From: Parabacteroides sp. | GTDB taxonomy: Bacteria > Bacteroidota > Bacteroidia > Bacteroidales > Tannerellaceae | Assembly: GCA_028689545.1 (NCBI GenBank) | Contig: JAQVCX010000001.1 | Location: forward strand, 1-64,000 | DNA length: 64,000 bases | Direction: 5' to 3' | Shown: positions 37,154-50,867 of the stretch, in pieces | Layout: each line of letters starts with the position of its first letter | Numbering within the stretch: the first letter of the stretch is position 1 | Made by a program: the position numbers and the translations under genes | Notes under the pieces: model-generated | The model's database searches: none | The model's input: the letters and a program-made list of their open reading frames with translations, nothing else | What the model was told of the DNA's origin: nothing

Positions 37154-37313
37154 CTCTCTTTAGGATTTAGGGTAAATAATATGAGATTGGTATTCCTTGA
37201 TTAAGGATATTTTTAAAAATAGTCTTTTATGTAAAGATAATCAACTATTTATATGTTAATTATATTGAATACCTGTAGATTCCTTTTGCTGATGTCCTTG
37301 TTCCTGTGCAAAA

Positions 37314-37342
37314 CCGGACACAGTGTTCGATTCCGGACACTG
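37314..37342 (+). promoter_or_regulatory. Upstream activator site A for the sigma-54 promoter
   Basis: The region contains GTGTTCGATTCCGGACAC (37323-37340) preceded by CCGGACAC (37314-37321), forming the dyad CGGACAC-A-GTGTTCG. The 18-bp motif recurs with few changes at 41564 and 50792, each 43-44 bp upstream of a -24 element. It probably binds the NtrC-family regulator encoded at 52401. Confidence 0.75.
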
Positions 37343-37383
37343 CGGGGAGGCTCCCGTTTCTTATTACCAACCACTTACGTTTT

Positions 37384-37398
37384 TGGCACGGGGTTTGC
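37384..37398 (+). promoter_or_regulatory. Sigma-54 promoter of the adaptor/permease operon
   Basis: TGGCACGGGGTTTGC has GG at -24 and GC at -12 with the exact 12-bp step of the consensus TGGCAC-N5-TTGC. It lies 33 bp upstream of ATG 37432. Confidence 0.85.
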
Positions 37399-37431
37399 TC
37401 TTGGGAGGGGGGAAAATAAAACATACTAAAT

Positions 37432-38676
37432 ATGGATAGAGAGATATCAAGGGAAGTTCAGAAAAAGGAGCAGCGCAAGCGGTTTATTAAGCTGGGGGCG
37501 GGGATCGGTATCGCCGTTGTCGTGATAGGCGGGGCGATCGGTTTCATGCAAACCAGCCTGCAACGGAAGGACTTGGTCTTTTCAACGGTGGATAAGGGCG
37601 TGATCGAGGTGTCCGTCAGCGCGTCGGGCAAGGTGGTGCCCGCTTTCGAGGAGATCATCAACTCGCCGATCAACTCCCGCATCGTGGAGATCTACAAGAA
37701 GGGGGGCGATTCCGTGGAGGTGGGCACCCCGATCTTGAAGCTGGACTTGCTGAGCGCCGAGACGGACTACAATAAACAACTGGACGAGGAGCAAATGAAG
37801 CGCCTCCAGCTGGATCAGCTCCGCATACAGAACCGCAACAAGCTGTCCGCTATGGAGATGCAGCTAAAGGTGTCGCGCATGGAGCTGAACCGGAAAGAGG
37901 TGGAGCTGCGCAACGAGCGCTATCTGGATAGCCTAGGAGCGGGGACGACCGACAAGGTCCGCCAAGTGGAGCTGGACTATAACGTCAGCGTCTTGAAACT
38001 GCGTGAGGATGAGCAGAAGTACGAGAACGAGCAGTCCCTAACCGGTGCCGACTATAAGGTGAAAGAGCTCGACCTGAACATCTTCCGCAAGAGCCTGGCC
38101 GAGACGAGGCGCACCCTGGAGGATGCCCAGATCCGTGCGCCCCGCAAGGCGATCCTCACCTACGTGAACAACGAGGTAGGCGCCCAGGTCTCCCAAGGTA
38201 GCCGTGTGGCGATCGTGTCGGACCTGTCCCACTTCAAGATAGAGGGCGAGATAGCCGATACCTACGGCGACCGGATCGCCGCCGGCAGCAAGGCGGTCGT
38301 GAAGGTGGGCAACGATAAGCTGGATGGCGTGGTGAGCGATGTCACCCCCCTGTCGAAGAACGGCGTGATCTCCTTCACCGTGCAGCTGGAGGAGGACAAC
38401 CACCGCCGCCTGCGCTCCGGGCTGAAGACCGACGTGTACGTGATGAACGCCATCAAGGACGACGTGCTGCGTATCGCCAACGCCTCCTTCTACGTAGGGA
38501 AGGGGGAGTATGAGTTGTTTGTCGTCAGCGGAGACCAATTGATCAAGCGGAAGGTGCAGCTGGGCGACAGCAACTTCGAGTACGTGGAGGTAGTAGCCGG
38601 ACTGGAGCCGGGCGACGAGGTGGTCGTCTCGGACATGACGAGCTTCAAGGAGAAGAACAAACTGAGATTGAAATAA
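37432..38676 (+). CDS. HlyD/MacA-like periplasmic adaptor (membrane fusion protein)
   Basis: The 414-residue protein has one N-terminal membrane anchor (about 18-38: LGAGIGIAVVVIGGAIGFM). A lipoyl/barrel-sandwich half follows (VSASGKVVPAFEEIINSPIN), then a coiled-coil hairpin (about 110-210, rich in Leu/Glu/Arg), the second lipoyl half (IRAPRKAILTYVNNEVGAQV) and a beta-barrel domain. It bridges inner-membrane FtsX-type permeases and the TolC channel. The gene uses strikingly GC-rich codons. It is the first gene after sigma-54 promoter A and is followed 13 bp later by a permease. Confidence 0.9.
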   Translation: MDREISREVQKKEQRKRFIKLGAGIGIAVVVIGGAIGFMQTSLQRKDLVFSTVDKGVIEVSVSASGKVVPAFEEIINSPINSRIVEIYKKGGDSVEVGTPILKLDLLSAETDYNKQLDEEQMKRLQLDQLRIQNRNKLSAMEMQLKVSRMELNRKEVELRNERYLDSLGAGTTDKVRQVELDYNVSVLKLREDEQKYENEQSLTGADYKVKELDLNIFRKSLAETRRTLEDAQIRAPRKAILTYVNNEVGAQVSQGSRVAIVSDLSHFKIEGEIADTYGDRIAAGSKAVVKVGNDKLDGVVSDVTPLSKNGVISFTVQLEEDNHRRLRSGLKTDVYVMNAIKDDVLRIANASFYVGKGEYELFVVSGDQLIKRKVQLGDSNFEYVEVVAGLEPGDEVVVSDMTSFKEKNKLRLK

Positions 38677-38689
38677 CAAAGCAACGAAT

Positions 38690-39958
38690 ATGATTAAGCA
38701 ATACATCAAACAAGCCCTCCAGCAGCTTAGGGAGAACACGCTCGTAAGCGTGATCTCGATCGCTGGAACCGCTCTCGCCATAGCCATGATACTGGTGATG
38801 GTGCTGGTCTTCCAGATCAACTCGGCGGGGTTCGCCCCGGAGACCGACCGGAATCGTTTCCTCTATGTATGGGGGACGGAGATAGCCCCTAAAAACGAGC
38901 AAGGAAGCCGGAATCGCGGCAATATGTCGGCCGAGGTCGTGAAGGAATGCTTCTACACGTTGAAAAGGCCGGAAGCCGTGGCCGCCTATGTCCGGGATAA
39001 GCGTCCGGTGTCGTTGCCCGGCAAGAGGTCTTTCAAGGAGTATGACATTTGCTATACCGACGCGGGTTATTGGCATATATTCGATCATCGTTTCGTGGAG
39101 GGAGGGGCTTTCGGCGAGGCGGATTTCCGCTCTGCCGTACCCAAGATCGTCTTGTCGAGGCGGATGGCGACCCGCCTGTTCGGAGGGGAGAAGGCCGTCG
39201 GGCGGCAGGTCGTGATGGATTACGTGACCTTTACGGTTTGCGGCGTGGTAAGCGATGTGCCCAACCCCTTGATGGTCTCCTACTTCGACGCTTGCGTGCC
39301 TTATTCCTGCGACGATAACCTGATGAGGGGCAATAGCGAATACGGCGAGAATATGGTAGGTGTTCTTAGCATGGTGTTGCTGGCCCGTTCCTCGTCGGAT
39401 TTCGATGCCGTTCGCTCGGAGCTGGATGCGCGGGTGCGGCGATATAATGAGGGCAAGGCCGATTACAGTGTCGATTTCCCCGCCGGGGCGCTTTCCCAAC
39501 TGGACGCGGCGATGGGCAGCGGGGCTTGGAAGCGGGTGGACTGGAAAACCTACCTGGCGGGATCGGGCGCTTTCCTTTTCTTCCTCTTATTGGTCCCGGC
39601 GTTGAACCTGACAGGCGTGATCCAATCGTCCGTGCAGAAGCGGAAAGAGGAGATCGGGTTGAGGAAGGCCTTCGGGGCTACCGGGCGGAACCTCTTGACG
39701 CAGATACTCTCGGAGAACCTCGTGCTGACCTTGATCGGCGGCGCGATCGGCATCGGCTTGTCCTTGCTTCTGCTGGTGCTCAGCAAATCCTTTATGCTGA
39801 ACGAGGGAATCACGCTTACGCTGCCGATGCTCATCAAGCCCGGTTTGTTCCTATCCGCTCTCGTCTTCGTTTTCCTGCTGAATATACTGAGCGCCGGCAT
39901 CCCGGCCTGGCGTACGACGCGGCAGCCGATCGTGGAGGCGCTGAAGGGGGAAGAGTGA
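38690..39958 (+). CDS. ABC transporter permease, MacB/FtsX type (pair 1, class I)
   Basis: The 422-residue permease has an N-terminal helix after IKQYIKQALQQLRENTLVSV, a periplasmic MacB_PCD domain (about 45-270) and three C-terminal FtsX helices (about 285-415). The cytoplasmic loop KEEIGLRKAFGATGRNLLTQ is the usual contact with the ATPase. Class I members of this locus share the start M-x-K-x-Y-x-K-Q-A. It likely dimerises with the class II permease at 40057 and uses the ATPase at 41687. It is in one operon with the adaptor. Confidence 0.88.
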   Translation: MIKQYIKQALQQLRENTLVSVISIAGTALAIAMILVMVLVFQINSAGFAPETDRNRFLYVWGTEIAPKNEQGSRNRGNMSAEVVKECFYTLKRPEAVAAYVRDKRPVSLPGKRSFKEYDICYTDAGYWHIFDHRFVEGGAFGEADFRSAVPKIVLSRRMATRLFGGEKAVGRQVVMDYVTFTVCGVVSDVPNPLMVSYFDACVPYSCDDNLMRGNSEYGENMVGVLSMVLLARSSSDFDAVRSELDARVRRYNEGKADYSVDFPAGALSQLDAAMGSGAWKRVDWKTYLAGSGAFLFFLLLVPALNLTGVIQSSVQKRKEEIGLRKAFGATGRNLLTQILSENLVLTLIGGAIGIGLSLLLLVLSKSFMLNEGITLTLPMLIKPGLFLSALVFVFLLNILSAGIPAWRTTRQPIVEALKGEE

Positions 39959-40024
39959 ACTTCAATGAATAATGAATAGTGAATCATGAAACGAATAACG
40001 AATAATGAGTTGCCAGCTATTAAC

Positions 40025-40052
40025 TTTCAACTGTCAACTTTCAACTGTCAAC
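40025..40052. repeat. 14-bp direct repeat between paired permease genes
   Basis: TTTCAACTGTCAAC occurs twice in tandem just before ATG 40057. Its reverse complement (GTTGACAGTTGA) recurs at 48933-48960. The preceding 60 bp are A/T-rich with repeated AATAATGA-like words and no ORF. Confidence 0.7.
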
Positions 40053-40056
40053 TAAT

Positions 40057-41325
40057 ATGGTAAAGCATGTATTAAAGATAATATGGGCGCAGCGCAAGAG
40101 CAACGGCTGGATACTGGCCGAGCTGGTCATCGTGATGTGCGCCCTCTGGTTTATGGTGGATAAGATGTGGGTGGATTTGCGCTGCTACTACGCCCCGATG
40201 GGGTATGATATAACGGATACGTGGCGCTTGAAGCTGTCCGCGCTCTCGCCGAACGCCCCGGGGTATGTGCCCGACTCGCTGAGCGGCTCGGATCCCACGC
40301 GGGACCTGCTGACCCTCGTGGAGCGTATACGCCAGGAGCAGGAGATAGCGGAAGTCTGCGTCACGTATTGGTCCATGCCTTACGCGTTCGGCAACTCGTG
40401 GGGAGGTGTCTATCCGCTCGACGGGGATACGGCGGCTTCCTCGGGGAAGAGCTTCCACATGCTAAGGGTGGGGCCTACCTATTTCGACGTGTTCCGCGTC
40501 AAGGACAAGGAGGGGCGCACGGTCACTCCCCTGGTGCGCGACGCTTATAGGCCGACGGTGGTCACGGCGGAGGCTGAGGAGGCCTTCTTCAAGGGTCGGT
40601 CGGCCGTGGGGCACAAGATCTCGTATAACGACGACCTGTCCGACCCCCTCACTATCGTGGCGGTGCTCCCCACCTTCCGCAGCAATGACTTCGACCGCCC
40701 GGAGAATTGCACGTTCTCCATCTTGAAGGACGATAAGCTGGAGGATATGGTGAAGGCTTTCGGCATAGAGCGCGCCGAGCTATCCGTCCGCACGAGACGG
40801 CCGATGACCGAGGACGAGATGTACGCCTTCCTGGAGGGCGCGGCGGAGCGGATGACGGTGAACAACGTCTTCGTCTACGGCGTCACCCTCCTTGCCGACC
40901 AGCGCGACACGCAGCTCAGCTTCACCAAGAACGAGAACAGCAAGAAGCTCTCCATGATGGCCTTCCTGCTGGCGAACGTCTTCTTCGGCATCGTGGGCAC
41001 CTTCTGGTTGCGCACCGAGCGGCGGCGGGGCGAGATAGGCCTCCGCGTGGCGATCGGCTCCAGCCGGGGCAAGCTGGGCGGCCTCATGTACCTGGAGGGC
41101 GTGACCCTCTTGGCGATCACCCTGCCGATCGTGCTGCTCTTCGCCTTCAACATGGCCTTCCTCGACAAGCTGGATTCCTACCGCGAGCCGCTCACCCTCT
41201 TGCGCTTCGCGGCTACCCTCGGCCTCTCCTACCTCCTGATGTCCGGCATGATCTGCCTCGGCATCTGGCTCCCCGTCCGCAAGGCCGTAAGGATGGCCCC
41301 GGCGGAGGCGTTGCATTATGAATAG
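40057..41325 (+). CDS. ABC transporter permease, MacB/FtsX type (pair 1, class II)
   Basis: The 422-residue permease begins VKHVLKIIWAQRKSNGWILA, the mark of class II members here. It has a first helix (about 20-40), a periplasmic domain (about 45-275) and three C-terminal helices with the coupling loop RRGEIGLRVAIGSSRGKLGG. The end is PVRKAVRMAPAEALHYE. GC-rich with C-ending codons. It follows the class I permease after a 98-bp repeat-containing gap and presumably forms a heterodimer with it. Confidence 0.88.
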   Translation: MVKHVLKIIWAQRKSNGWILAELVIVMCALWFMVDKMWVDLRCYYAPMGYDITDTWRLKLSALSPNAPGYVPDSLSGSDPTRDLLTLVERIRQEQEIAEVCVTYWSMPYAFGNSWGGVYPLDGDTAASSGKSFHMLRVGPTYFDVFRVKDKEGRTVTPLVRDAYRPTVVTAEAEEAFFKGRSAVGHKISYNDDLSDPLTIVAVLPTFRSNDFDRPENCTFSILKDDKLEDMVKAFGIERAELSVRTRRPMTEDEMYAFLEGAAERMTVNNVFVYGVTLLADQRDTQLSFTKNENSKKLSMMAFLLANVFFGIVGTFWLRTERRRGEIGLRVAIGSSRGKLGGLMYLEGVTLLAITLPIVLLFAFNMAFLDKLDSYREPLTLLRFAATLGLSYLLMSGMICLGIWLPVRKAVRMAPAEALHYE

Positions 41326-41411
41326 ACACCTACCTAGTTGGACGGAATGGGGGCGATTCAGGTTAGCAACACCTACCTAGTTGGACGGAATGGGGGCGAT
41401 TCTGGTTAGCA
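41326..41411. repeat. Two 43-bp direct repeats (plus a degenerate third)
   Basis: Two tandem copies of a 43-bp unit (41326-41368, 41369-41411) start ACACCTACCTAGTTGGACGG and differ at one base. A third, degenerate copy continues to about 41499 but is split by the 34-bp palindrome at 41422. The 361-bp gap between permease and ATPase genes consists of this repeat, the palindrome, an activator site and a sigma-54 promoter. Confidence 0.85.
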
Positions 41412-41421
41412 ATCCTACTTA

Positions 41422-41455
41422 GTTGTAGAGACGCGGCACGCCGCGTCTCTACAAC
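41422..41455. repeat. 34-bp REP-like palindrome
   Basis: GTTGTAGAGACGCGGC and GCCGCGTCTCTACAAC form a 16-bp perfect stem around AC. Related palindromes with GGGGCGTGCCCC centres are at 43390 and 46174. This family of GTAGAGACG palindromes is dispersed in many bacterial genomes. Confidence 0.85.
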
Positions 41456-41543
41456 CGGGTAAATTAGTTCGGTGGAAGGGGGATTATTTTGGTTAGTAAT
41501 CATTATCTTTGTGCCAATAAAAGACGCAACCCTCCTCCCCCCC

Positions 41544-41582
41544 GCTGTCCGATAACGAATCAAGTGTTCGTTATCGGACAGC
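41544..41582 (+). promoter_or_regulatory. Upstream activator site B (perfect 16-bp dyad)
   Basis: GCTGTCCGATAACGAA (41544-41559) is perfectly repeated inverted as TTCGTTATCGGACAGC (41567-41582) with 7 bp between. The right arm lies in GTGTTCGTTATCGGACAG (41564-41581), the motif shared with sites A and C. The end of that motif is 44 bp upstream of the -24 element. Confidence 0.8.
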
Positions 41583-41625
41583 TTTCGTTTGGGGGGTATC
41601 GCTAGGAACCAGGAGGTTACGTTTC

Positions 41626-41640
41626 TGGCACGCTATTTGC
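41626..41640 (+). promoter_or_regulatory. Sigma-54 promoter of the ABC ATPase gene
   Basis: TGGCACGCTATTTGC fits TGGCAC-N5-TTGC with GG and GC 12 bp apart, 46 bp upstream of ATG 41687. Confidence 0.85.
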
Positions 41641-41686
41641 CTTTATCGGGCAAAGTAGTACATGAACGATTAAAACAACAACAATC

Positions 41687-42352
41687 ATGATCAAACTAAC
41701 AAATCTACAGAAGATCTACCGTACGAAAGAGATAGAGACGGTAGCGTTGGAGAACGTGAACCTGGAGGTTCAGAAAGGCGAGTTCCTTAGCATCATGGGG
41801 CCCTCCGGTTGCGGGAAGTCCACCCTGCTGAACATCATGGGGCTGCTGGACGCGCCCACCTCGGGCACGGTGGAGATCAACGGCGTGAACACCGTGGGCA
41901 TGGGCGACAAGGAGCTGGCCGCCTTCCGTAACCGCCAGCTCGGCTTCGTCTTCCAGAGCTTCCACCTGATCAACTCGCTGAACGTGCTGGACAACGTGGA
42001 GCTGCCCCTGCTTTATCGCAAGGTCTCCTCCTCCGAGCGCCGCGAGCTGGCCAAGGCCGTGCTGGAGAAGGTGGGCCTGAGCCACCGCACCCGCCACTTC
42101 CCCACGCAGCTCTCCGGCGGACAGTGCCAGCGCGTGGCCATCGCCCGCGCCATCGTGGGCAACCCGGACATCATCCTCGCCGACGAGCCGACCGGTAACC
42201 TCGATTCCAAGATGGGTATCGAGGTCATGGAACTGCTCCACCAGCTCAACCAGGAGGACGGCCGCACCATCGTGATGGTCACCCACAACGAGGCGCAGGC
42301 CAAGCAGACCAGCCGCACCGTGCGCTTCTTCGACGGCAGGCAGGTGCAGTGA
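41687..42352 (+). CDS. ABC transporter ATP-binding protein (MacB/LolD type)
   Basis: The 221-residue ATPase has Walker A GPSGCGKST (about 39-47), signature LSGGQCQRVAIARA (about 142), Walker B IILADEPTGNLD (about 165) and the H-loop VTHNEA. It powers FtsX/MacB permeases by mechanotransmission rather than moving substrate through the membrane (known for MacB and LolCDE). It is the only ATPase in the locus, so it probably serves all three permease pairs. It has its own sigma-54 promoter. Codons are nearly all C- or G-ending, more extreme than in the third permease pair. Confidence 0.93.
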   Translation: MIKLTNLQKIYRTKEIETVALENVNLEVQKGEFLSIMGPSGCGKSTLLNIMGLLDAPTSGTVEINGVNTVGMGDKELAAFRNRQLGFVFQSFHLINSLNVLDNVELPLLYRKVSSSERRELAKAVLEKVGLSHRTRHFPTQLSGGQCQRVAIARAIVGNPDIILADEPTGNLDSKMGIEVMELLHQLNQEDGRTIVMVTHNEAQAKQTSRTVRFFDGRQVQ

Positions 42353-42410
42353 GGGCGTCGCACACGGGGGATCTCCATGCGTGAGACCCCCCGAGCGGCA
42401 CCTCACCTCA

Positions 42411-42502
42411 TAGCTATGAGGCATGATACCTCAAACCTATGATGCATCGTACATCAAAGCTATGAGGTACGACACCTCAAAGGTATGAGGTGAGGTGTCA
42501 CC
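42411..42502. repeat. Four-copy 23-bp tandem array with internal dyads (array C)
   Basis: Units start at 42411, 42434, 42457 and 42480. The first three contain an inverted repeat: TGAGG...CCTCA, TGATG...CATCA, TGAGG...CCTCA. The second unit changes both arms together, so the dyad is kept. The array fills the space between the ATPase and the convergent gene at 42520. Confidence 0.85.
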
Positions 42503-42519
42503 CGGGGTGTCTCGATACC

Positions 42520-43305
42520 TTATATCACGGTGAAGGTGAGCGTACCATACCGGGGCTCTTTATAGAGGTGATAAGTAGGGGTGAACTGGGTTCCGACCGT
42601 CGCTAGCCATTCGCCGGGCGTAAATTCGATGCCGGGTACGAAGCAAAGCCTCCCGCCGCTGTTGATGAGCATATCGGCGGCGGCGTAGAAACGCTCCTCG
42701 CCGGTCTCGGCGCAGCGCAGGGTAAGGCCCACCTCGGGGGAGTCGCCCGCCAGTTTCAGCCGGTCGCCGTAGATCGAGATGAAGGGGTGCTCGCCCGCGG
42801 GAAGCTGGTTGTAAGGCTCGTCGCTGTCGGGCGTGCGGGGCTGGATGCGGAGGCTGACGTAGGTAGGGCGGGGCATCGAGTTGTAGTCCACCTGGTAGGT
42901 CTCGTTCACGGCCTTGAGGTTGGCCACCCGCTGTTTCAGCCGGGGCGCGGGGCGCAGGCGGGCGGCGAGGGTATGGCGGTCGGGGTCGAACTTCTCGTAC
43001 GGGGTCTCGAAAGGCCCGTTCATGGTCAGTTCCGTCCGTCCGAAGCCGAAGTCCACGTTGTAGCCCTCCTCCAGCGCCTCGTAGATCTCCTCCTTGAGGA
43101 GGTTGAAGGTGTTGACGAGCGTCTCCTTGCGATACTCGCTCCGTTTGTCCACTACACGGGCGGCGATGTTATCGATGTCGAGCGTACGTTGCCACACGAC
43201 GCTTCCCTTGTAGCTAGCGTTGCCGGGCAGGTGGCTCTTGCTGACGCGGAAGCTCAGCTTGCGAAGCGGCTTTGGCAGCTCCGACTTAGGTAATTCTTTA
43301 TCCAT
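42520..43305 (-). CDS. HU-like DNA-binding-domain protein (DUF4469 type)
   Basis: From ATG 43305 the 261-residue protein has an N-terminal Bacteroidetes HU-like domain (about 15-125: NIAARVVDKRSEYRKETLVN ... YNVDFGFGRTELTMNG). A C-terminal Ig-like DUF4469 domain follows (about 155-260, ending TFTVI). Such proteins are nucleoid-like and variable between strains; partner and target are unknown. The frame continues upstream to 43437, but that part covers the REP element and lacks homology. It is transcribed against the exporter genes and separates the ATPase from permease pairs 2 and 3. Confidence 0.8.
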   Translation of the reverse strand: MDKELPKSELPKPLRKLSFRVSKSHLPGNASYKGSVVWQRTLDIDNIAARVVDKRSEYRKETLVNTFNLLKEEIYEALEEGYNVDFGFGRTELTMNGPFETPYEKFDPDRHTLAARLRPAPRLKQRVANLKAVNETYQVDYNSMPRPTYVSLRIQPRTPDSDEPYNQLPAGEHPFISIYGDRLKLAGDSPEVGLTLRCAETGEERFYAAADMLINSGGRLCFVPGIEFTPGEWLATVGTQFTPTYHLYKEPRYGTLTFTVI

Positions 43306-43381
43306 GGTAACGTGGTTTAAGATGATTAAGATGCAAAGATAAGAAAGATAACGCGAACGGTATGGAGATTCCGTGGAATGA

Positions 43382-43511
43382 TTACCCGGTTGTAGAGACG
43401 GGGCGTGCCCCGTCTCATCCCGTCCGAATGGTAGCATTGGATACTATTGGACGGCGGGGAGACGGGGCACGCCCCGTCTCTACAACTAGGGATGATCGTA
43501 TTCAATGTTAC
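43382..43511. repeat. 130-bp dispersed repeat, copy 1
   Basis: It contains two GTAGAGACGGGGC-type palindromic arms facing each other (43389-43416 and 43458-43485) and a conserved linker and tail (TGATCGTATTCAATGTTA). Copy 2 at 46167-46296 differs at about two bases. Each copy lies just before a class I permease gene. It has MITE-like terminal inverted arms but no ORF. Confidence 0.85.
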
Positions 43512-43571
43512 AGGGATGATCGTATCGGGTAAATGGATGAAATAATAGAATGAACAATAAATAAACACATT

Positions 43572-44864
43572 ATGTATAAGATATACCTTAAACAAGCCTG
43601 GGCCCTCATCCGGCAAGAGCGGTTGTTCAGCTTGATATACGTCGTGGGGACGGGGCTGGCGATCTCGATGGTGATGGCCATAGCGGTGGCCTACCATATC
43701 CGTACGGCGAATATCGCCCCCGAGGTGCATCGGGATCGGATGTGTTACCTCCAGAACGTGAAGTACGAGTGGAAGGATACGGAGGGCAATTACAAGGCCG
43801 CTTGCGGTCCTCGCTTCGTCAAGGAGGTGATCGGCAATCTCAGCGTCCCGGCGGACGTGGCGGTGACCACCAGCTCTTTCATGCTGCCCTTCGTGTATGG
43901 CGACGTTTTTATGCGTGTTCCCGGTGGAGACGAGTCCCCCAAGGTGAGGCTGAAAGGGTGCGACGACGGTTTCTGGCGGGTCTATCGCTTCAGCTTCGTG
44001 GAGGGCCGCCCCTTCACGAAGGAGGAGTTCCTCTCCGGCGTGCCCCGCGTGGTGCTGTGCCGCTCGCTGGCCGGCCGGCTGTTCGGGCATGAGGCGGCGG
44101 CGGGGCAGACGGTCTGGCTGAACGATCTGGAGTACACGGTGAGCGGTGTCGTGGAAGACGTGTCCGGCGTGACCGCCGATGTCTACGCCGAGGCGTGGGT
44201 CACCTATTCCTCCCTCTCCGTCACCATGGATCAAGCCTTGGACGAGCGTGAGGGAGCCGCCGGCCTGCTGGAGGCCAATATCCTGCTAGCCGACGCTTCC
44301 GACCTGCCGGCGCTCTCGGAGGAGCTGCGGCGGCAGGTGAGGCGCTATAATAGTGGGCTGTCCGAGGGGCGTGTCGTATGCGAGGATCCGCTGAGCTACG
44401 CCGACAATCTCCTGGCCGCGTTGTTCGGCCCCGAGACCTATATCGTGCTCGGCATGGCGCTTCTCCTTTTCCTGCTGGTACCGGCGCTGAACCTTTCCGG
44501 GCTGAGCGCGTCGAGGATACAAGAGCGCGTCGGCGAGCTGGGCATCCGCAAGGCGTTCGGGGCGACGAGGGCTACGCTGATGGGGCAGATATTCTTGGAG
44601 AACATGGTGCTGATGTTGCCCGGCGGCGTGGCGGGGCTGCTCTTCTCCTATGGGCTGGTGTTCGTTTTCCGCGACACCCTCCTCGTGCCCCGGTTCAATC
44701 TCCTGGGGGCGAGCGGGGAGGTCTTCCTCTCGCCGGGGATGCTGCTCAATATGTCGGTCTTCGCCTACGCTTTCGGGGTCTGCGTGGTGCTGAACCTGCT
44801 ATCCTCGATGCTGCCCGCCTGGAGGATCGTGAGGGGGAATATAACGGAAGCTTTAAATGAATAG
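43572..44864 (+). CDS. ABC transporter permease, MacB/FtsX type (pair 2, class I)
   Basis: The 430-residue protein begins MYKIYLKQAWALIRQERLFS, nearly the same as the gene at 46358. It has one N-terminal helix (about 22-42), a periplasmic domain (about 45-285) and three C-terminal helices with the coupling loop RVGELGIRKAFGATRATLMG. GC-rich codons like pair 1. It lies 60 bp after 130-bp repeat copy 1; no sigma-54 promoter was seen immediately upstream. It ends 12 bp before its class II partner. Confidence 0.87.
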   Translation: MYKIYLKQAWALIRQERLFSLIYVVGTGLAISMVMAIAVAYHIRTANIAPEVHRDRMCYLQNVKYEWKDTEGNYKAACGPRFVKEVIGNLSVPADVAVTTSSFMLPFVYGDVFMRVPGGDESPKVRLKGCDDGFWRVYRFSFVEGRPFTKEEFLSGVPRVVLCRSLAGRLFGHEAAAGQTVWLNDLEYTVSGVVEDVSGVTADVYAEAWVTYSSLSVTMDQALDEREGAAGLLEANILLADASDLPALSEELRRQVRRYNSGLSEGRVVCEDPLSYADNLLAALFGPETYIVLGMALLLFLLVPALNLSGLSASRIQERVGELGIRKAFGATRATLMGQIFLENMVLMLPGGVAGLLFSYGLVFVFRDTLLVPRFNLLGASGEVFLSPGMLLNMSVFAYAFGVCVVLNLLSSMLPAWRIVRGNITEALNE

Positions 44865-44876
44865 GAGGTACAAGTC

Positions 44877-46136
44877 ATGATGATACATATATTGAAACTG
44901 ATAAGATCTCGTGCGGGTGGTAGCGGATGGATACTGGCCGAGTTGCTGGTGGTGTTCGTGGTGATCTGGTTTATGACCGGCTATTTCTTGATGATGGGGA
45001 AGCTGAGGCATGAGCCGGTGGGCTACGACCTCGACGGCGTTTACCAAGCGGTGCTCGCCACGCGTGCCTCCAACAGCCCCTCGTTCGTGGCTTACGAGGA
45101 GGGCGGCGATGGGGCGGCTCGCGACGTGGAGCGTATCGTGGAACGCCTCCGGCGGCATCCCGGCGTGGAGGCGGTGGGGCTGTCGGTCTCTTCCTTGCCT
45201 TATGCCTTGTCTACGTCGGGAAGCCGGGCGCGGACGGATTCCGTCACGGCAAGCGTGCGGATGATGATGGTCTCGCCGGGCTACTTCCGGGTGTTCGGCA
45301 TCCGGCCAGTCTCGGGGGGAAGCCCGGAGGAGTTGGGCGAGGCCCTGTCGCGGGCCGGCGAGGGCAAGGGGAGGGTCATCTCCGCAGGCCTAGCGAAAAG
45401 GCTCTATGGCACGACCGACGCTATCGGCGCCGGCATATACCTCAATAAGGACACCCTCCCCGGATCGGTGATAGCCGTGACGGGACCAGTCCGCAATGAC
45501 GAGTTCGACCGGCGGAACCAATGCTGCGTTTTCTCCTTGCTCGACTTGCGTGAGCAGGGCAACCTGAGGCAGGCGCAGATCACCTTCCGGGTCCGTCCGG
45601 ACGCGGTCACGGCCGATTACGCGGACCGGCTCATGAAAGAGATGAGGCGGCAATTGATGGCGGGCAACTTCAGGGTGTCGGAGATAAGGGATTACCGGGA
45701 GGTGCGTGCCTCCTTTATGGAAAACTCGCTGTATAGTAGCGCCCAGCGGATTGTCTCCGCCTTGGGCCTGTTCCTGCTCACGAACGTGTTCCTCGCGGTG
45801 ATCGGTACGTTCTGGTTCCACGTGAGCCGTCGCCGTCCGGAAGTAGGCTTGCGTATGGCGGTAGGCTCCACGCGTGCTTCCGTCCTAGGCTTGGTGATGG
45901 GGGAGGGCTTGATGCTGCTGACGATCGCTACTGTCCCGGCCCTGTTGATTTGCGCCAACCTAGCTTGGCTGGACCTTATGCCGCCGGGCTTGGTGGAATC
46001 CAAGCTAGGCTGTTTCCTGATCAACTCCTTGCTGACTTGGCTGATCCTTGCGCTCATCATCATCCTGGCCACCTGGTACCCCTCCCGAAAAGCCTCCAGC
46101 CTAGAGCCCGCCGATGCCCTGCGCTATGACGGCTAG
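44877..46136 (+). CDS. ABC transporter permease, MacB/FtsX type (pair 2, class II)
   Basis: The 419-residue permease starts at ATG 44877 (tandem ATG; a full AGGAGG lies upstream, rare in this window). It has IRSRAGGSGWILAELLVVFV, a periplasmic domain and the loop RRPEVGLRMAVGSTRASVLG with three final helices. The end PSRKASSLEPADALRYDG matches other class II members. It is presumably the partner of the preceding gene. Confidence 0.87.
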   Translation: MMIHILKLIRSRAGGSGWILAELLVVFVVIWFMTGYFLMMGKLRHEPVGYDLDGVYQAVLATRASNSPSFVAYEEGGDGAARDVERIVERLRRHPGVEAVGLSVSSLPYALSTSGSRARTDSVTASVRMMMVSPGYFRVFGIRPVSGGSPEELGEALSRAGEGKGRVISAGLAKRLYGTTDAIGAGIYLNKDTLPGSVIAVTGPVRNDEFDRRNQCCVFSLLDLREQGNLRQAQITFRVRPDAVTADYADRLMKEMRRQLMAGNFRVSEIRDYREVRASFMENSLYSSAQRIVSALGLFLLTNVFLAVIGTFWFHVSRRRPEVGLRMAVGSTRASVLGLVMGEGLMLLTIATVPALLICANLAWLDLMPPGLVESKLGCFLINSLLTWLILALIIILATWYPSRKASSLEPADALRYDG

Positions 46137-46166
46137 TGGAGATTCACCATCCGGCAGTCGATCCCT

Positions 46167-46296
46167 TTACCCGGTTGTAGAGACGGGGCGTGCCCCGTCT
46201 CATCCCGTCCGAACGGTAACATTGGATACTATTGGACGGCGGGGAGACGGGGCACGCCCCGTCTCTACAACTAGGGATGATCGTATTCAATGTTAC
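46167..46296. repeat. 130-bp dispersed repeat, copy 2
   Basis: Nearly identical to 43382-43511, again between a class II and a class I permease gene and in the same orientation. The arms ending in GTAGAGACGGGGC can form a long cruciform. The same relative position suggests that the repeat was duplicated along with the permease pair or targets the same context. Confidence 0.85.
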
Positions 46297-46357
46297 CGCC
46301 CTGGCGGGATGATAAGCAATAGTATAATAACAAAGAGAATATAAACTATAACACATT

Positions 46358-47659
46358 ATGTATAAGATCTACTTAAAACAAGCCTGGGCCCTCTTGAAGG
46401 AGAACCGTCTCCTCAGCCTGGTATCCATCCTCGGCACGGCCTTGGCGATCTGCATGATCATGGTGATGGTCATTGTCTTCGAGATACAAAATAAAGGCTT
46501 CAAGCCGGAGTTGAACCGGGACAGGACGCTTTACGTGAAGGACGTGGCGATCACGGATAAGAATGAGGAGGATGACGGTATGAACTATTCCCTTGTCGGT
46601 GGCCGTGTGGCTAAGGAGTGTTTCTTAACCTTGAAAACCCCGGAGGCTGTCAGCATGCAATTGATGCGGATGCAAACGCTGGTCACTTCCACGGATCAAA
46701 CGAGCCGGATGAAATGCGATCAGATACGGACCGACGAGGGCTTCTGGAATATCTTCGATTTCGAGTTCTTGGCGGGAAAACCCTTCCTGCGGAGCGATGT
46801 GGAGAGTAATATCAAGAAAGCGGTGATCAGCCGTGGTTTGGCGCTCCGCATATTCGGGTTGGCCGACGAGAGCGTTATCGGGCAAACGATATTGGTGGCA
46901 CGCCGTCCGTACGTGGTTGGCGGTATCGTGGAGGACGTATCTCCCCTCGCCAGCTGTGCGTATGCCCAGATATGGATTCCTTATGCTCAATCGGAGGTGG
47001 ATCGGCTGATAAACGAGGATACATTGGAGGGGCTGATCGGTAGCTACCGGGTCTTGATATTGGCCCGCTCTGTCGATGACTTCGACCAGATCAAGGCCGA
47101 GGTGGAGCAAAATGTAGCCCGGTTTAATAACTCCTTGCAAGAACTCAAGATCGACTTGATGAAGCAGCCGGATACGCAGATGGAGAGCCGCCTTCGTTTG
47201 TGGAGTAATATCGTGCCCGACGTGCCGAGAATGTTGGGGCAATATGCGTTGGTCTTGATCGTCTTGCTTCTGGTCCCGGCCATGAACCTTAGCGGGCTTA
47301 CCGCGTCAAGGATGCAGAAACGCATGGGCGAGCTGGGTGTACGGAAAGCGTTCGGCGCTAACCGTGGCACGTTGATACGGCAGGTGCTGGCGGAGAATCT
47401 CGCCGTGACGTTATTGGGCGGGGCGTTGGGATTGCTGTTCTCCTATGTGGCGGTCTTCTTGCTTAAGGATTGGCTGCTGGGCTCGTTCGAGCTGGCTTCC
47501 TTGAATAGCGGTCTGACGTTGAGCGCGGGGATGCTGATCCGCCCGGCAATCTTCTTCTTCGCCTTCTTGTTCTGTTTGTTGCTGAATCTGCTGAGCGCGG
47601 CGATCCCGGCGTGGAATGCCTCTAGCGGGAATATAGTGGATTCTTTGAATGATAACTAA
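46358..47659 (+). CDS. ABC transporter permease, MacB/FtsX type (pair 3, class I)
   Basis: The 433-residue permease starts MYKIYLKQAWALLKENRLLS and ends NIVDSLNDN. It has an N-terminal helix, a periplasmic MacB_PCD domain (about 45-290) and three C-terminal helices around KRMGELGVRKAFGANRGTLI. Its codon use is less GC-rich than pairs 1 and 2. It is followed after 36 bp by its class II partner. Confidence 0.87.
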   Translation: MYKIYLKQAWALLKENRLLSLVSILGTALAICMIMVMVIVFEIQNKGFKPELNRDRTLYVKDVAITDKNEEDDGMNYSLVGGRVAKECFLTLKTPEAVSMQLMRMQTLVTSTDQTSRMKCDQIRTDEGFWNIFDFEFLAGKPFLRSDVESNIKKAVISRGLALRIFGLADESVIGQTILVARRPYVVGGIVEDVSPLASCAYAQIWIPYAQSEVDRLINEDTLEGLIGSYRVLILARSVDDFDQIKAEVEQNVARFNNSLQELKIDLMKQPDTQMESRLRLWSNIVPDVPRMLGQYALVLIVLLLVPAMNLSGLTASRMQKRMGELGVRKAFGANRGTLIRQVLAENLAVTLLGGALGLLFSYVAVFLLKDWLLGSFELASLNSGLTLSAGMLIRPAIFFFAFLFCLLLNLLSAAIPAWNASSGNIVDSLNDN

Positions 47660-47695
47660 TCACCGGGTTTATTAATTCTATAATTCATCACTGAT

Positions 47696-48937
47696 ATGAT
47701 AAAGCATCTAGTAAAAATCATCTGGAACCAGCGTAGGCGCAATGGATGGATTGCCGCCGAGATCCTGTTGGTATTCGTGGTTCTGTGGTATATAATCGAT
47801 TCGCTAATGGCGGTCGGGAAAGTCTTCTTCGCCCCGATGGGATGGGATATCGACCATGTCTATTGGATCTCGATGGGCGTGGAGGAGGTAGACCGTAACG
47901 AGATGGATTCTACCTATCGATACGTCACTTCCGGACGCAGTATGCTGACGGCGATAGACCGTATCAAGACCTGCCCGGGCGTAGAGGCGGTGGGCGTGGG
48001 GCTGATGTCCATGCCGTATGTGGGGGAGAATTCGTATATGCTTGTAGGGGTAAGCGATTCTGTGAATATTGAATACGTAAAGCTGGAACGGGTGACTCCA
48101 GGTTTCATGGAGGTGTTTGGCTTTCGTCCTATGGAGGGTGAGCGAAAGAGTTGGGAGGAAATGCTGAGTGGTAATCAAGTCATTCTCTCCGGTCGTTCGT
48201 TTGATGAGTTTAAGGAAAAAGGAGGTAAACGAGAGCAAGGTGTTTTCTTCGGGGACGATATGCGCGTGATCGGTGGGGTTACTGCCTCATTTCGCGCGGA
48301 CCGTTTCCAGCGGGGAGCGAGCTGGTTGTTTAGGCGTCTGACGGACGAGGAGATTGCCGAGGACGATACCGATTTCCATGTGAAGATAGCCGTTCGGGTA
48401 AACCCTTCTGCGGATCATGATTTCCCGGAGTTCTTCCTGAGGCAAATGGAGAAGCAACTCTCCATAGACCGCTTGTATCTGTTGGATGTCATCCCATACT
48501 CGGACTTGAGATATAGCATGGAATTGAGAAATGGCGTAAAATCCGAGTTGCAGAACCAGATAGCTGTGATGGGATTCTTGCTGTTCAATATATTCTTGGG
48601 GATCATCGGTACGTTCTGGTTCCGCACGGAACAACGGAAAGGGGAGATGGGGTTGCGAATAGCCTTGGGCTCTACCCGTTTCGGGTTGAAAGGGATTATG
48701 ATCGCCGAGGGAATTTTACTGTTGACTTTGGTAGCGATTCCCGCTTCGATTATTTGCGTCAACCTCCAAGTGTCGGAGATAACGAAGTCCTATTATATGG
48801 ATTATACGTTGGGACGCTTTTTGATAGGCTTTGCGATGACTTATCTCATAATGGCTATCATGGTTGTTTTGGGTATATGGTATCCGGTAAGTCAACTCGC
48901 CCGTCTGGAGCCTGCGGAAGCGCTACGCTATGAATAG
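47696..48937 (+). CDS. ABC transporter permease, MacB/FtsX type (pair 3, class II)
   Basis: The 413-residue permease begins IKHLVKIIWNQRRRNGWIAA, has a periplasmic domain (about 45-265), and the loop RKGEMGLRIALGSTRFGLKG before the last helices. The end is SQLARLEPAEALRYE. Base composition resembles the surrounding genome. It is the last permease of the series, converging on the PAP2 gene. Confidence 0.87.
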   Translation: MIKHLVKIIWNQRRRNGWIAAEILLVFVVLWYIIDSLMAVGKVFFAPMGWDIDHVYWISMGVEEVDRNEMDSTYRYVTSGRSMLTAIDRIKTCPGVEAVGVGLMSMPYVGENSYMLVGVSDSVNIEYVKLERVTPGFMEVFGFRPMEGERKSWEEMLSGNQVILSGRSFDEFKEKGGKREQGVFFGDDMRVIGGVTASFRADRFQRGASWLFRRLTDEEIAEDDTDFHVKIAVRVNPSADHDFPEFFLRQMEKQLSIDRLYLLDVIPYSDLRYSMELRNGVKSELQNQIAVMGFLLFNIFLGIIGTFWFRTEQRKGEMGLRIALGSTRFGLKGIMIAEGILLLTLVAIPASIICVNLQVSEITKSYYMDYTLGRFLIGFAMTYLIMAIMVVLGIWYPVSQLARLEPAEALRYE

Positions 48938-48999
48938 TTGACAATTGATAGTTGACAGTTGATAGTTAATTACCGCTAGGCGCAACTGCCAACTGTCAA
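48933..48999. repeat. 14-bp repeats forming a long hairpin between convergent genes
   Basis: ATAGTTGACAATTG and ATAGTTGACAGTTG are tandem (48933-48960). GTTGACAGTT (48950-48959) pairs with AACTGTCAAC (48990-48999). The same word in inverse orientation precedes the gene at 40057. It may act as a two-way transcription end, but no T-run follows. Confidence 0.65.
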
Positions 49000-49006
49000 C
49001 TGTCCA

Positions 49007-49564
49007 CTAAAACGTCATTGACGCATACACCCCATAATGTCCGTCTCCCGCTACCGGGCTGATCGACAGGTTATGCTTCTTGGCGAACGGACGAGTGAAG
49101 ATATAAGCGCTTCCCGCGCCAATAACGGCTCCCGCCGTTACGTCCCACCAATCATGCTTCTTCCCGTAGACCCGGCTCCAACCGACATACGTCGATATCG
49201 CATAGGCGGGAATACCCCATTTCCACCCGTAACGCCGTTGGATAAAAGCCGCCCCGGCGAAGGATACGGAGGTATGCATAGACGGGAAAGAATGATTATC
49301 GCTGAAGTCGGGTCGCTCTTTCTTCACTAGGTATTTCAGCGCATAGGTTACGCCCAATGTTGTAACTCCGGTGAAAACACCTTGTTTCAGTCCTTGCCAA
49401 TCTTGGGTTGCCAATATGGTCGCCAAACTCGCCACCGGAGTGATAAACACCAATACGTCTCCCGAGGTCCGCACGGCCTTGCGGCTACCGGTCACCTCCA
49501 GTTCCTGCGCGCTCACCGACAGGCAAAGCAGTAGCATTGTTAATGTGAAAAGGATATGTCTCAT
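49007..49564 (-). CDS. PAP2-family phosphatase
   Basis: The 185-residue protein has a signal peptide (MRHILFTLTMLLLCLSVSAQ) and the three motifs of type 2 phosphatidic-acid phosphatases: KYLVKKERP, PSMHTS (Met in place of Gly of PSGH) and SRVYGKKHDWWDV. It probably removes phosphate from lipid or undecaprenyl pyrophosphate in the envelope. Nearby dgkA on the same strand suggests a lipid-phosphate theme, although the HEPN/MNT pair lies between them. Confidence 0.88.
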   Translation of the reverse strand: MRHILFTLTMLLLCLSVSAQELEVTGSRKAVRTSGDVLVFITPVASLATILATQDWQGLKQGVFTGVTTLGVTYALKYLVKKERPDFSDNHSFPSMHTSVSFAGAAFIQRRYGWKWGIPAYAISTYVGWSRVYGKKHDWWDVTAGAVIGAGSAYIFTRPFAKKHNLSISPVAGDGHYGVYASMTF

Positions 49565-49576
49565 TTCTATTAATTT

Positions 49577-49978
49577 TTAATCTTGAAGAATAAGGGCCTT
49601 GATACGTTCGATAAATCTTGCGGTTTCCTTAACTCTAGGCAATACCTCTTCTTCTGATAAATTGTAGTTGTCATTATAATCACCCTTCAGCCTTAAGGAA
49701 AAAAGACGGGAATAAAGGGCTCCGTCTGCCTTCTCTACTTTCGAGGTGGCAACGAAATGTTGTCCAAAAAGGCGGATAATACCATCATGGCTCTTTGCTT
49801 CGAACTTGTTTTTTATCAGTAATGCCGAAACTATGTAATATGCGGCGTAATAAAGTCTATTCGCAACGATTTCCCAGTAGCCCGCTTCGATATTGATTTG
49901 TATGTGGCTGAAAGTCATTTCAGCTTTCTCAATCCTGTATTTTACGATGTCTATTCGTTCTTCTTCTGTTAGACTCAT
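49577..49978 (-). CDS. HEPN-domain protein
   Basis: The 133-residue all-helical protein matches the HEPN (UPF0332-like) family: ANRLYYAAYYIVSALLIKNK, KSHDGIIRLFGQHFV, LRLKGDYNDNYNLSEEEVLP. The R-x4-6-H RNase motif is not obvious, so nuclease activity is uncertain. It overlaps the preceding nucleotidyltransferase gene by 4 bp, the standard arrangement of HEPN/MNT toxin-antitoxin or AMPylation modules. Confidence 0.85.
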   Translation of the reverse strand: MSLTEEERIDIVKYRIEKAEMTFSHIQINIEAGYWEIVANRLYYAAYYIVSALLIKNKFEAKSHDGIIRLFGQHFVATSKVEKADGALYSRLFSLRLKGDYNDNYNLSEEEVLPRVKETARFIERIKALILQD

Positions 49979-50289
49979 AGTAATTGTACTCCTTCTTTCT
50001 CTACATTCTTATAAAAAGGGGTGAATTTATTGGCCAGCCATTCCTTTAGGGTATACATGACAGGGGTGATCTGGATAGCGTTATGCCAGCCTAATTCAAA
50101 TAATGGGTACGAATAATTATCGAAATCCGTATCGTCCAATTTTTCTTTATCAAGTACGATCAATACATCCCAATCTGAATCAGGTCGGGCATCTCCTCTC
50201 GCTTGAGAACCGAAAAGATAAGCTCGGGCACCGGATGGTAGCTTTCGTAGGTTCTGCTTTATAAGCCTTGTTATATATTCATTACTCAT
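49975..50289 (-). CDS. MNT-type nucleotidyltransferase
   Basis: The 104-residue minimal nucleotidyltransferase has YLFGSQARGDARPDSDWDVL (about 24-43), the GS...RGD...D-x-D signature binding magnesium and ATP. In characterised HEPN/MNT pairs this enzyme modifies and blocks the HEPN toxin. Its stop overlaps the HEPN start by 4 bp. Confidence 0.88.
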   Translation of the reverse strand: MSNEYITRLIKQNLRKLPSGARAYLFGSQARGDARPDSDWDVLIVLDKEKLDDTDFDNYSYPLFELGWHNAIQITPVMYTLKEWLANKFTPFYKNVEKEGVQLL

Positions 50290-50328
50290 AATTGTTAACT
50301 GTCTAGTTGATAACGCAAAGATAGCTAT

Positions 50329-50709
50329 TCACATGAAAAGATCCATGATTTTAGGTATAAAGATAATCAATCCGACGATCGCCGCCGCTATAGCCATCAA
50401 TAACACGGCTCCCGCCGCCAAGTCCTTTGTCCGCTTGATAGCCTCGTTGTATTCCGGCGAGACCAGATCCGCTAACGCCTCGATGGATGAGTTCACCGCC
50501 TCGGCTGCTAATACCGCCCCGATCGCGATCGCCACGGCTACCCATTCCATGCGAGATAAACCGAGCAGAGCCCCGGCTATCAATACGCAGACCGCCGCGA
50601 AACAATGTATCCAAGCGTTATGCTCTTTCGTTATCAATAACCTAATCCCATGGAAAGCGAATTTAAAGCTTTTGGCTCTCTTCCGGAATGTGAAACCGTC
50701 GTTCTTCAT
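50329..50709 (-). CDS. dgkA: Diacylglycerol/undecaprenol kinase
   Basis: From ATG 50709 the 126-residue protein has three membrane helices and the DgkA/UdpK core: EHNAWIHCFAAV, VAVAIAIGAVLAAEAVNSSI and EALADLVSPEYNEAIKRTKD. It phosphorylates diacylglycerol or undecaprenol at the inner membrane. An ATG at 50799 lies upstream of the promoter (50745-50752) and is rejected. The gene is divergent from tolC. Confidence 0.92.
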   Translation of the reverse strand: MKNDGFTFRKRAKSFKFAFHGIRLLITKEHNAWIHCFAAVCVLIAGALLGLSRMEWVAVAIAIGAVLAAEAVNSSIEALADLVSPEYNEAIKRTKDLAAGAVLLMAIAAAIVGLIIFIPKIMDLFM

Positions 50710-50744
50710 TTGTGTAACGTTGTGATATCTCTTATTGAGGAGGG

Positions 50745-50752
50745 CAAAGATA
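50745..50752 (-). promoter_or_regulatory. -7 element for dgkA
   Basis: Minus-strand TATCTTTG matches TAnnTTTG, 35 bp upstream of ATG 50709. It lies 31-38 bp from activator site C, so the regulator could also affect dgkA. Confidence 0.5.
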
Positions 50753-50782
50753 GGTATTTTTTGCCATGTACGCATACCAAAA

Positions 50783-50810
50783 ACGGACACACTGTTCATT
50801 ATCGGACACT
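50783..50810 (+). promoter_or_regulatory. Upstream activator site C
   Basis: ACGGACAC followed by CTGTTCATTATCGGACAC (50792-50809) matches sites A and B. The end of the 18-bp motif lies 43 bp upstream of the -24 element, the same as at site A. Confidence 0.75.
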
Positions 50811-50852
50811 CACTATAACCCTATTCGCTGGATTATCAATCATCTATGTTTT

Positions 50853-50867
50853 TGGCATGCCTTTTGC
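50853..50867 (+). promoter_or_regulatory. Sigma-54 promoter of the tolC-regulator-kinase operon
   Basis: TGGCATGCCTTTTGC has GG and GC 12 bp apart as in the sigma-54 consensus, 27 bp upstream of ATG 50895. Confidence 0.85.

Follow-up and report, generated by a model that had tools for sequence, protein, structure and literature searches.

How are the parts of one exporter, whose genes lie in separately switched units, brought on together with the regulator encoded among them? This question is raised by a stretch of 64,000 nucleotides from Parabacteroides sp. (GenBank assembly GCA_028689545.1, contig JAQVCX010000001.1, positions 1 to 64,000), which is referred to as a whole as the window and comes from a genome (G000) of 3.76 Mb that is 90.5% complete. 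The exporter consists of a HlyD adaptor, a stand-alone ATPase, a TolC channel and three pairs of MacB_PCD/FtsX or FtsX-type permeases, and a domain search found all parts of a tripartite efflux system to be encoded (adaptor, inner-membrane part and TolC). Three of its units lie behind sigma-54 promoters that carry tandem dyads and a block resembling the consensus of integration host factor (IHF). The regulator encoded in the third unit is likely to bind the dyads and would activate the exporter and its own operon together, a reading to which we assign a probability of about 0.83 from comparison of sequences.

The initial annotation placed -24/-12 promoters at 37384, 41626 and 50853, and these are three of the four top sigma-54 matches in the 64 kb; all three boxes fit the TGGCAY-N5-TTGC context with GG at -24 and GC at -12. 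An 18-bp motif that it described 43, 44 and 43 bp upstream of the boxes was confirmed to the base, and gene positions together with domain matches agree that the promoters precede the adaptor gene, the ATPase gene and the tolC-regulator-kinase genes. The 18-mers are dyads of the form GTGTTCG-N4-CGGACAC, with 0, 1 and 2 half-site mismatches at promoters 1, 2 and 3 when C is accepted for T, and their shape is that expected for a dimer of an NtrC-family helix-turn-helix (HTH) protein. A scan of the whole genome for motif plus box, proposed as a check, found the core TTCRNTNNCGGACA 11 times, with four of the copies at the three promoters; the other seven have no sigma-54 box (at most one mismatch) within 150 bp on either side. 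Because the longer open reading frame (ORF) from 50766 begins within the enhancer, the likely start of tolC is the ATG at 50895. The description of the exporter as three units holds for the switched units and is incomplete, since neither permease pair 2 nor pair 3 has its own switch. Also missed were the tandem arrangement of the enhancer dyad, the IHF-like block and the GAFTDA loop of the regulator.

In order to follow this arrangement beyond the window, 123 Tannerellaceae genomes were searched with a composite DNA pattern made of a dyad in one of two spellings, a free gap of 26-56 bases and a sigma-54 box. The two spellings gave 36 and 59 matches, 95 in all, in 53 of the 123 genomes, and the reversed patterns gave 0 and 0; these counts are lower bounds, as a further spelling, TGTTCR-N4-YGAACA, falls outside both patterns. 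Chance was rejected as the source of the sites, the reversed and resampled controls being at 0. After removal of two identical sequences and of the window's own promoters 2 and 3, 91 distinct sites remained, and 87 of them precede genes matching TolC (36), the adaptor (25), the ATPase (16) or a permease (10), although six of the ten permease matches are only 22-27% identical. Two of the four unmatched sites are at contig ends (L157 and L222), one lies before an ORF that is TolC-like by eye (L217) and one is unassigned (L231). Despite a gap that was free over 30 bases, the total site length is 74-77 in 83 of the 91 sites and 83-85 in the remaining eight. The longer class, about one helical turn longer, occurs in G087, G105 and G106 before more distant exporters, and in six of its eight sites the match is to a permease at 22-27%. 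In a search across the order (294 genomes, evenly drawn) the strict TGTCCG-type pattern was found in four genomes, three of them Tannerellaceae, a result that says little on Bacteroides, where the -12 element of the named loci described below is often TTTG with some base other than C after it.

The enhancer is doubled in most of these sites. In the relatives, the best second dyad lies 19 bp (55 of 82 sites) or 20 bp (15 of 82) further upstream, together 70 of the 82. In the window this upstream dyad has a degenerate left half at promoters 1 and 3; at promoter 2 that half is good, and a long perfect inverted repeat is found there. We also considered this inverted repeat as a terminator and rejected that reading because the tandem register is common to promoters without a perfect repeat. 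Between the enhancer and the promoter, the block WATCARNNNNTTR sits 6 bp before the -24 box (position table of 66 sites), and each of the three window promoters has it at this distance with exactly one mismatch. At no more than one mismatch the block was present in 67 of 91 spacers versus 277 of 4550 shuffled spacers, a comparison that overstates independence since the sites are related by descent, and in 75 of the 85 sites with up to two mismatches its distance from the box was 6 bp. A search with block and box, leaving out the dyad, produced 41 matches and none with the reversed control. Thirty of these 41 loci, a set that overlaps the earlier composite sites, were read. In 28 of them the dyad is 25-27 bp upstream, and the two others are L244, with a near-dyad, and L266, which belongs to a paralogous system. 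An exporter match follows in 29, all except L248.

The initial annotation had predicted that the regulator, lying in the third unit, positively controls itself. We examined 80 named loci around regulator orthologs from Parabacteroides, Tannerella, Bacteroides, Phocaeicola and other genera, and tolC was immediately before the regulator in 68, with a kinase match in 79. The remaining 12 comprise nine loci with room but no adjacent tolC match and three that end too soon; when these and three loci with too little upstream DNA (L077, L111 and L132) are set aside, 65 loci are readable. When any base is allowed at the end of the -12 element, in view of the Bacteroides form mentioned above, a dyad plus box precedes tolC in 54 of the 65, as against 0 of 1300 controls made by first-order resampling. 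The spacers measure 43-45 bp in 38 of the 54 loci and 31 bp in 16. The loci of the short class are Bacteroides L075, L078 and L080 and 13 others, and their shortfall roughly equals the block, which is 13 bp long. In nine of the 11 misses tolC lies 31-164 bp behind a permease match and is probably part of a longer, co-transcribed operon. The predicted positive autoregulation by this regulator is strongly supported for the operon by a conserved composite promoter, within the limits given below.

The composite promoter also follows the regulator across genomes where the two are not neighbors. An adaptor switch in G041 (C1:749477) is about 3.45 Mb from the regulator (C1:4200458) on the same contig, and in G069 (C8 versus C7) and G045 (C15 versus C44) the adaptor switch and the regulator are on different contigs. 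Conservation through synteny alone was rejected, as these remote adaptor promoters carry the switch. Among the matches listed, to which this and the following counts of regulator matches refer, sites are present in 49 of the 74 genomes where the regulator is matched at 60% or more and in 4 of the 49 other genomes (Fisher 4.9e-11, a value that likewise overstates the independence of sites related by descent); the 74 include partial matches and paralogs of 60-64%.

The regulator itself was correctly called an NtrC-type activator, having REC, Sigma54_activat and HTH_8 domains, and it falls below the cut-offs of the AtoC, NtrC and ZraR models. RpoN is encoded in the same genome (PF04552 match at C122). 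The segment GISRAALYRRLEKY of the HTH domain, which we take from the general fold to be the recognition helix, is near invariant in 81 orthologs. The loop that contacts sigma-54 reads GAFTDA in 75 of these, GSFTDA in five and GAYTGA in one, so that aspartate is its standing form in 80 of 81, and the column of the phospho-acceptor aspartate of the REC domain is D in 81 of 81. In the available text of PMC4641369, GAFTDA is listed among the GAFTGA variants expected to keep activity in D. vulgaris, and an engineered glycine-to-aspartate change at the same place in the loop frees NorR from its regulatory domain according to the portion of PMC2941729 consulted. A regulator that bears GAFTDA naturally would provide a natural test of the loop variant. 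The Bacteroides luti ortholog at L072 has, in its aligned translation, an in-frame stop before the HTH segment. The kinase has the motif HEVNN, with the phospho-acceptor histidine, in the window's own protein and in five others inspected; by eye it has two membrane helices and a very short external loop. Two membrane helices with a minimal external loop are characteristic of intramembrane-sensing kinases of the BceS kind, in which the signal comes through a transporter.

From these features we infer binding, phosphorylation, bending and activation at the window promoters as follows. A signal would reach the kinase, which has almost no external loop, and the kinase would phosphorylate the REC domain of the regulator. 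The tandem dyads, which lie about two turns of the helix apart, would each be bound by a dimer of the regulator, an IHF- or HU-type protein would bend the DNA between enhancer and promoter, and the AAA+ ring, with GAFTDA instead of GAFTGA, would open the sigma-54 closed complex. The predicted outcome is positive autoregulation together with a matched supply of adaptor, ATPase and channel.

Several findings weigh against this reading, some of them bearing on the block and others on the activator. The genome does encode proteins of the HU/IHF fold, which favors the reading, but none of its ten PF00216 matches is assigned as an IHF subunit. While the block is found with up to two mismatches in 33 of the 38 named loci with 43-45 bp spacers, it is found in none of the 16, of 54, that have the 31-bp spacer, and therefore is not needed everywhere. 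It is conceivable, though on balance unlikely, that the block is an extended sigma-54 promoter element or an UP-like contact and not an IHF site. Its fixed 6 bp from the box would suit such an element, as would the Bacteroides promoters with short spacers that lack it. The conserved positions of the block, however, match WATCARNNNNTTR as printed for the E. coli IHF consensus in PMC7962754, the available text of which describes IHF binding between enhancer and sigma-54 promoter as common, and sigma-54 boxes elsewhere in the same genome either show no such block by eye (C13 and C168) or have it with three mismatches (C114:117307).

As to the activator, two of the 65 readable loci are real exceptions: L090 (B. 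fragilis) has a sigma-54 box before tolC with no dyad in range, and in L093 the dyad is too far from the box. None of the nine regulators that have upstream room but no adjacent tolC (L084, L092, L095, L109, L118 and L120-L123) has a composite promoter within 700 bp; these may not be self-controlling in this way, and autoregulation is therefore not universal. No strict site was found in 25 of the 74 genomes with a regulator match, some of which carry the TGTTCR-N4-YGAACA spelling (e.g., G028, G030, G051, G072 and G076). Conversely, strict sites occur in the four genomes counted above even though no regulator match there reaches 60%, and the same holds for G032 and G064 with their relaxed sites of block, dyad and box, the one in G032 preceding a gene with no exporter match. 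In such genomes another activator may act on the motif, or metagenome-assembled genomes may be missing the gene. In addition, a paralogous regulator of 62% in G069 stands beside its own ATPase-permease unit with the same dyad promoter.

These last observations would all suit the explanation that some other sigma-54 activator of the genome binds the dyads, the neighboring NtrC-type gene being no more than a target. We regard this as improbable, given that the five other strong Sigma54_activat proteins of the genome are 36-43% identical to the regulator over the aligned part and have different HTH segments. Moreover, more distant activators in the relatives (40-41% identical) adjoin promoters with other tandem dyads: GTGCK-N4-CGCAC dyads are found beside the helix GITRFALYRKLDKL (L303-L305; block with 0 mismatches) and a TGTC-N8-GGACG dyad beside GVSRQTLYNKMKRF (L306; block with 2 mismatches), while no sigma-54 box was found at the fifth such locus (L307). 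That the motif serves a repressor or another kind of activator, the sigma-54 boxes being incidental or constitutive, is very hard to credit: inverted repeats are generic operator shapes and promoter 2 has a long perfect one, but the fixed geometry of 74-77 bp, the tandem copies and the IHF-like block between them and the box form the layout of an enhancer-driven promoter, and sigma-54 promoters require an activator (PMC12316311, in the text available).

We return to control of the exporter by its own regulator, and to the permeases. In the two closest relatives (G036 and G037) identity to the window is 93-97% for the adaptor, the ATPase, TolC, the regulator and the kinase, in contrast to permease matches of 28 to 92%, and four farther relatives show the same contrast with the chassis. 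Permease pairs number six in G036 and about three in G037, as against three in the window. The variable permease pairs on a constant chassis may point to variable substrates, as judged from the divergence of their sequences. Of the five switches in G036, two stand in front of permeases, and one of these two precedes a permease 92% identical to permease 3a, which in the window lacks the switch. A 130-nt hairpin repeat lies before permease pair 2 of the window and again before pair 3, at the place of the G036 composite promoter. The first 114 nt of permease 3a (window 46350-46463) are 75% like permease 2a, and permease 3a of G036 aligns well with that of the window only from about codon 13. Since both the hairpin and the opening codons of 3a are similar to the copy that precedes 2a, it seems that gene conversion from pair 2 replaced the composite promoter of pair 3. 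The hairpin repeats are like repetitive extragenic palindromes or miniature inverted-repeat transposable elements; with 40 of 77 candidates scored, 80 matches were counted in the genome, mostly on both strands of one place, which corresponds to about 40 places or more.

The dyads found beside the more distant activators suggest, from few loci, that there are parallel channels of this kind. It is tempting to speculate, at slightly less than even odds, that Bacteroidales have parallel, insulated sigma-54 channels, one per class of FtsX exporter, each with its own GAFTDA activator matching its own tandem dyads on a common IHF-bent promoter body, and that a constant chassis takes fast-changing permease cartridges, some of them with a switch. 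If this is true, new exporter specificities would plug into one signaling line. Outside the window, on the same contig, a second sigma-54 box with tandem TGTC-type dyads (C114:117307; L018:10809) is followed by TolC-like and HlyD-like genes and those of two long FtsX-like permeases, all named by eye, as a separate exporter channel. Two further sigma-54 boxes of the genome, at C13:2113 and C168:1137, are apparently before genes and have other upstream sequences.

The features of the locus are listed in Table 1. The HU-DNA_bdg/DUF4469 gene is in the same place in G036 and G041, follows the ATPase gene in G050 and is absent there in G033 and G034; read-through from promoter 2 to permease pairs 2 and 3 would traverse this opposite-strand gene. 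Between the permeases and tolC, and named by eye, are a PAP2-like phosphatase gene (49007-49564), a small HEPN and nucleotidyltransferase-like pair (49577-50289) with no match in the compared stretches of six relatives, and a diacylglycerol/undecaprenol kinase-like gene (50329-50709) that is oriented divergently from tolC and is retained by several relatives.

Table 1. Promoter elements, genes and repeats of the exporter locus (positions in the window)
Feature	Position	Strand	Remarks
Upstream (second) enhancer dyad, promoter 1	37304..37321	+	degenerate left half
Promoter-proximal enhancer dyad 1	37323..37340	+	GTGTTCG-ATTC-CGGACAC
IHF-consensus-like block, promoter 1	37365..37377	+	1 mismatch to WATCARNNNNTTR; 6 bp before -24 box
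Sigma-54 -24/-12 promoter 1	37384..37398	+	TGGCACGGGGTTTGC
HlyD-family periplasmic adaptor	37432..38676	+	Pfam HlyD_3, HlyD_D23
MacB_PCD/FtsX permease 1a	38690..39958	+	domain match
MacB_PCD/FtsX permease 1b	40057..41325	+	domain match
Upstream (second) enhancer dyad, promoter 2	41545..41562	+	
Promoter-proximal enhancer dyad 2	41564..41581	+	
IHF-consensus-like block, promoter 2	41607..41619	+	1 mismatch
Sigma-54 -24/-12 promoter 2	41626..41640	+	TGGCACGCTATTTGC
Stand-alone ABC ATPase	41687..42352	+	LolD/DarD/MacB-like nucleotide-binding domain; profile matches
HU-DNA_bdg + DUF4469 protein	42520..43437	-	between ATPase and permease pair 2
Hairpin repeat, 130 nt	43382..43511		before permease pair 2
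MacB_PCD/FtsX permease 2a	43572..44864	+	no own switch
MacB_PCD/FtsX permease 2b	44877..46136	+	domain match
Hairpin repeat, second copy (98%)	46167..46296		before permease pair 3; at place of G036 composite promoter
FtsX-type permease 3a	46358..47659	+	no own switch
FtsX-type permease 3b	47696..48937	+	profile match
Upstream (second) enhancer dyad, promoter 3	50773..50790	+	degenerate left half
Promoter-proximal enhancer dyad 3	50792..50809	+	
IHF-consensus-like block, promoter 3	50834..50846	+	TATCAATCATCTA; 1 mismatch
Sigma-54 -24/-12 promoter 3	50853..50867	+	TGGCATGCCTTTTGC
TolC-family outer-membrane channel	50895..52382	+	OEP domain; start read from sequence
NtrC-type response regulator	52401..53771	+	REC, AAA+ with GAFTDA loop, HTH_8 with segment GISRAALYRRLEKY
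Histidine kinase	53784..55085	+	HAMP, PAS, HisKA (weak), HATPase; two membrane helices by eye

Sigma-54 promoters have been linked computationally to FtsX-like COG0577 permeases in Bacteroidia (PMC12316311, 2025), and sigma-54 control of these permeases at class level is accordingly not new. That study, in its available text, gives a class-level enrichment with no enhancer site, tandem dyad or activator for these permeases, and the terms IHF and UAS are absent from its main text; it cites sigma-54-dependent chaperone genes in B. thetaiotaomicron and mentions feedback of ZraR on its own operon. The enhancer, the block, the activator and the self-wiring were found neither there nor in the literature among the matches listed, as far as the texts were available. 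From the accessible parts of PMC12669032, neither B. theta BT0562/BT0563 nor the efflux hits of P. merdae could be linked to this locus. In the accessible text of a B. fragilis bile paper (PMC10197588) "sigma" occurs only as a supplier or as sigma-70, and "bacteroid" does not occur in the main text of PMC3162934. Little was found in print on the role of sigma-54 in gut Bacteroidales, PMC12316311 being the one exporter-related paper among the matches listed, in the texts available. The present locus adds a regulon that is defined by a motif, has a candidate gene for its activator and can be read in commensals; it is specific enough for regulated exporters to be predicted from the DNA sequence.

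In its layout of a kinase with a REC-AAA-Fis regulator, as found by the domain search, the system resembles ZraSR, AtoSC and NtrBC, which act at -24/-12 promoters. It is unlike them in having a tripartite FtsX exporter as its target and a GAFTDA loop. The IHF consensus between enhancer and box is shared with the IHF-assisted sigma-54 promoters of D. vulgaris orp and G. sulfurreducens (see PMC7962754), but the host here is one of the Bacteroidales, the block recurs at a fixed 6 bp from the box and the role of IHF is a predicted one. The ATPase and adaptor have the darobactin exporter DarBCD among their best NCBIfam neighbors, all of them well below the curated cut-offs. With its HlyD adaptor, MacB_PCD/FtsX permeases and TolC channel the exporter is, as judged from its genes, one that should work like MacAB-TolC. 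It differs from that system in its separate ATPase gene and in its three pairs of unfused permeases, and it is not filed as MacB because the nucleotide-binding domain and the permease are in separate genes and do not form a single fused chain.

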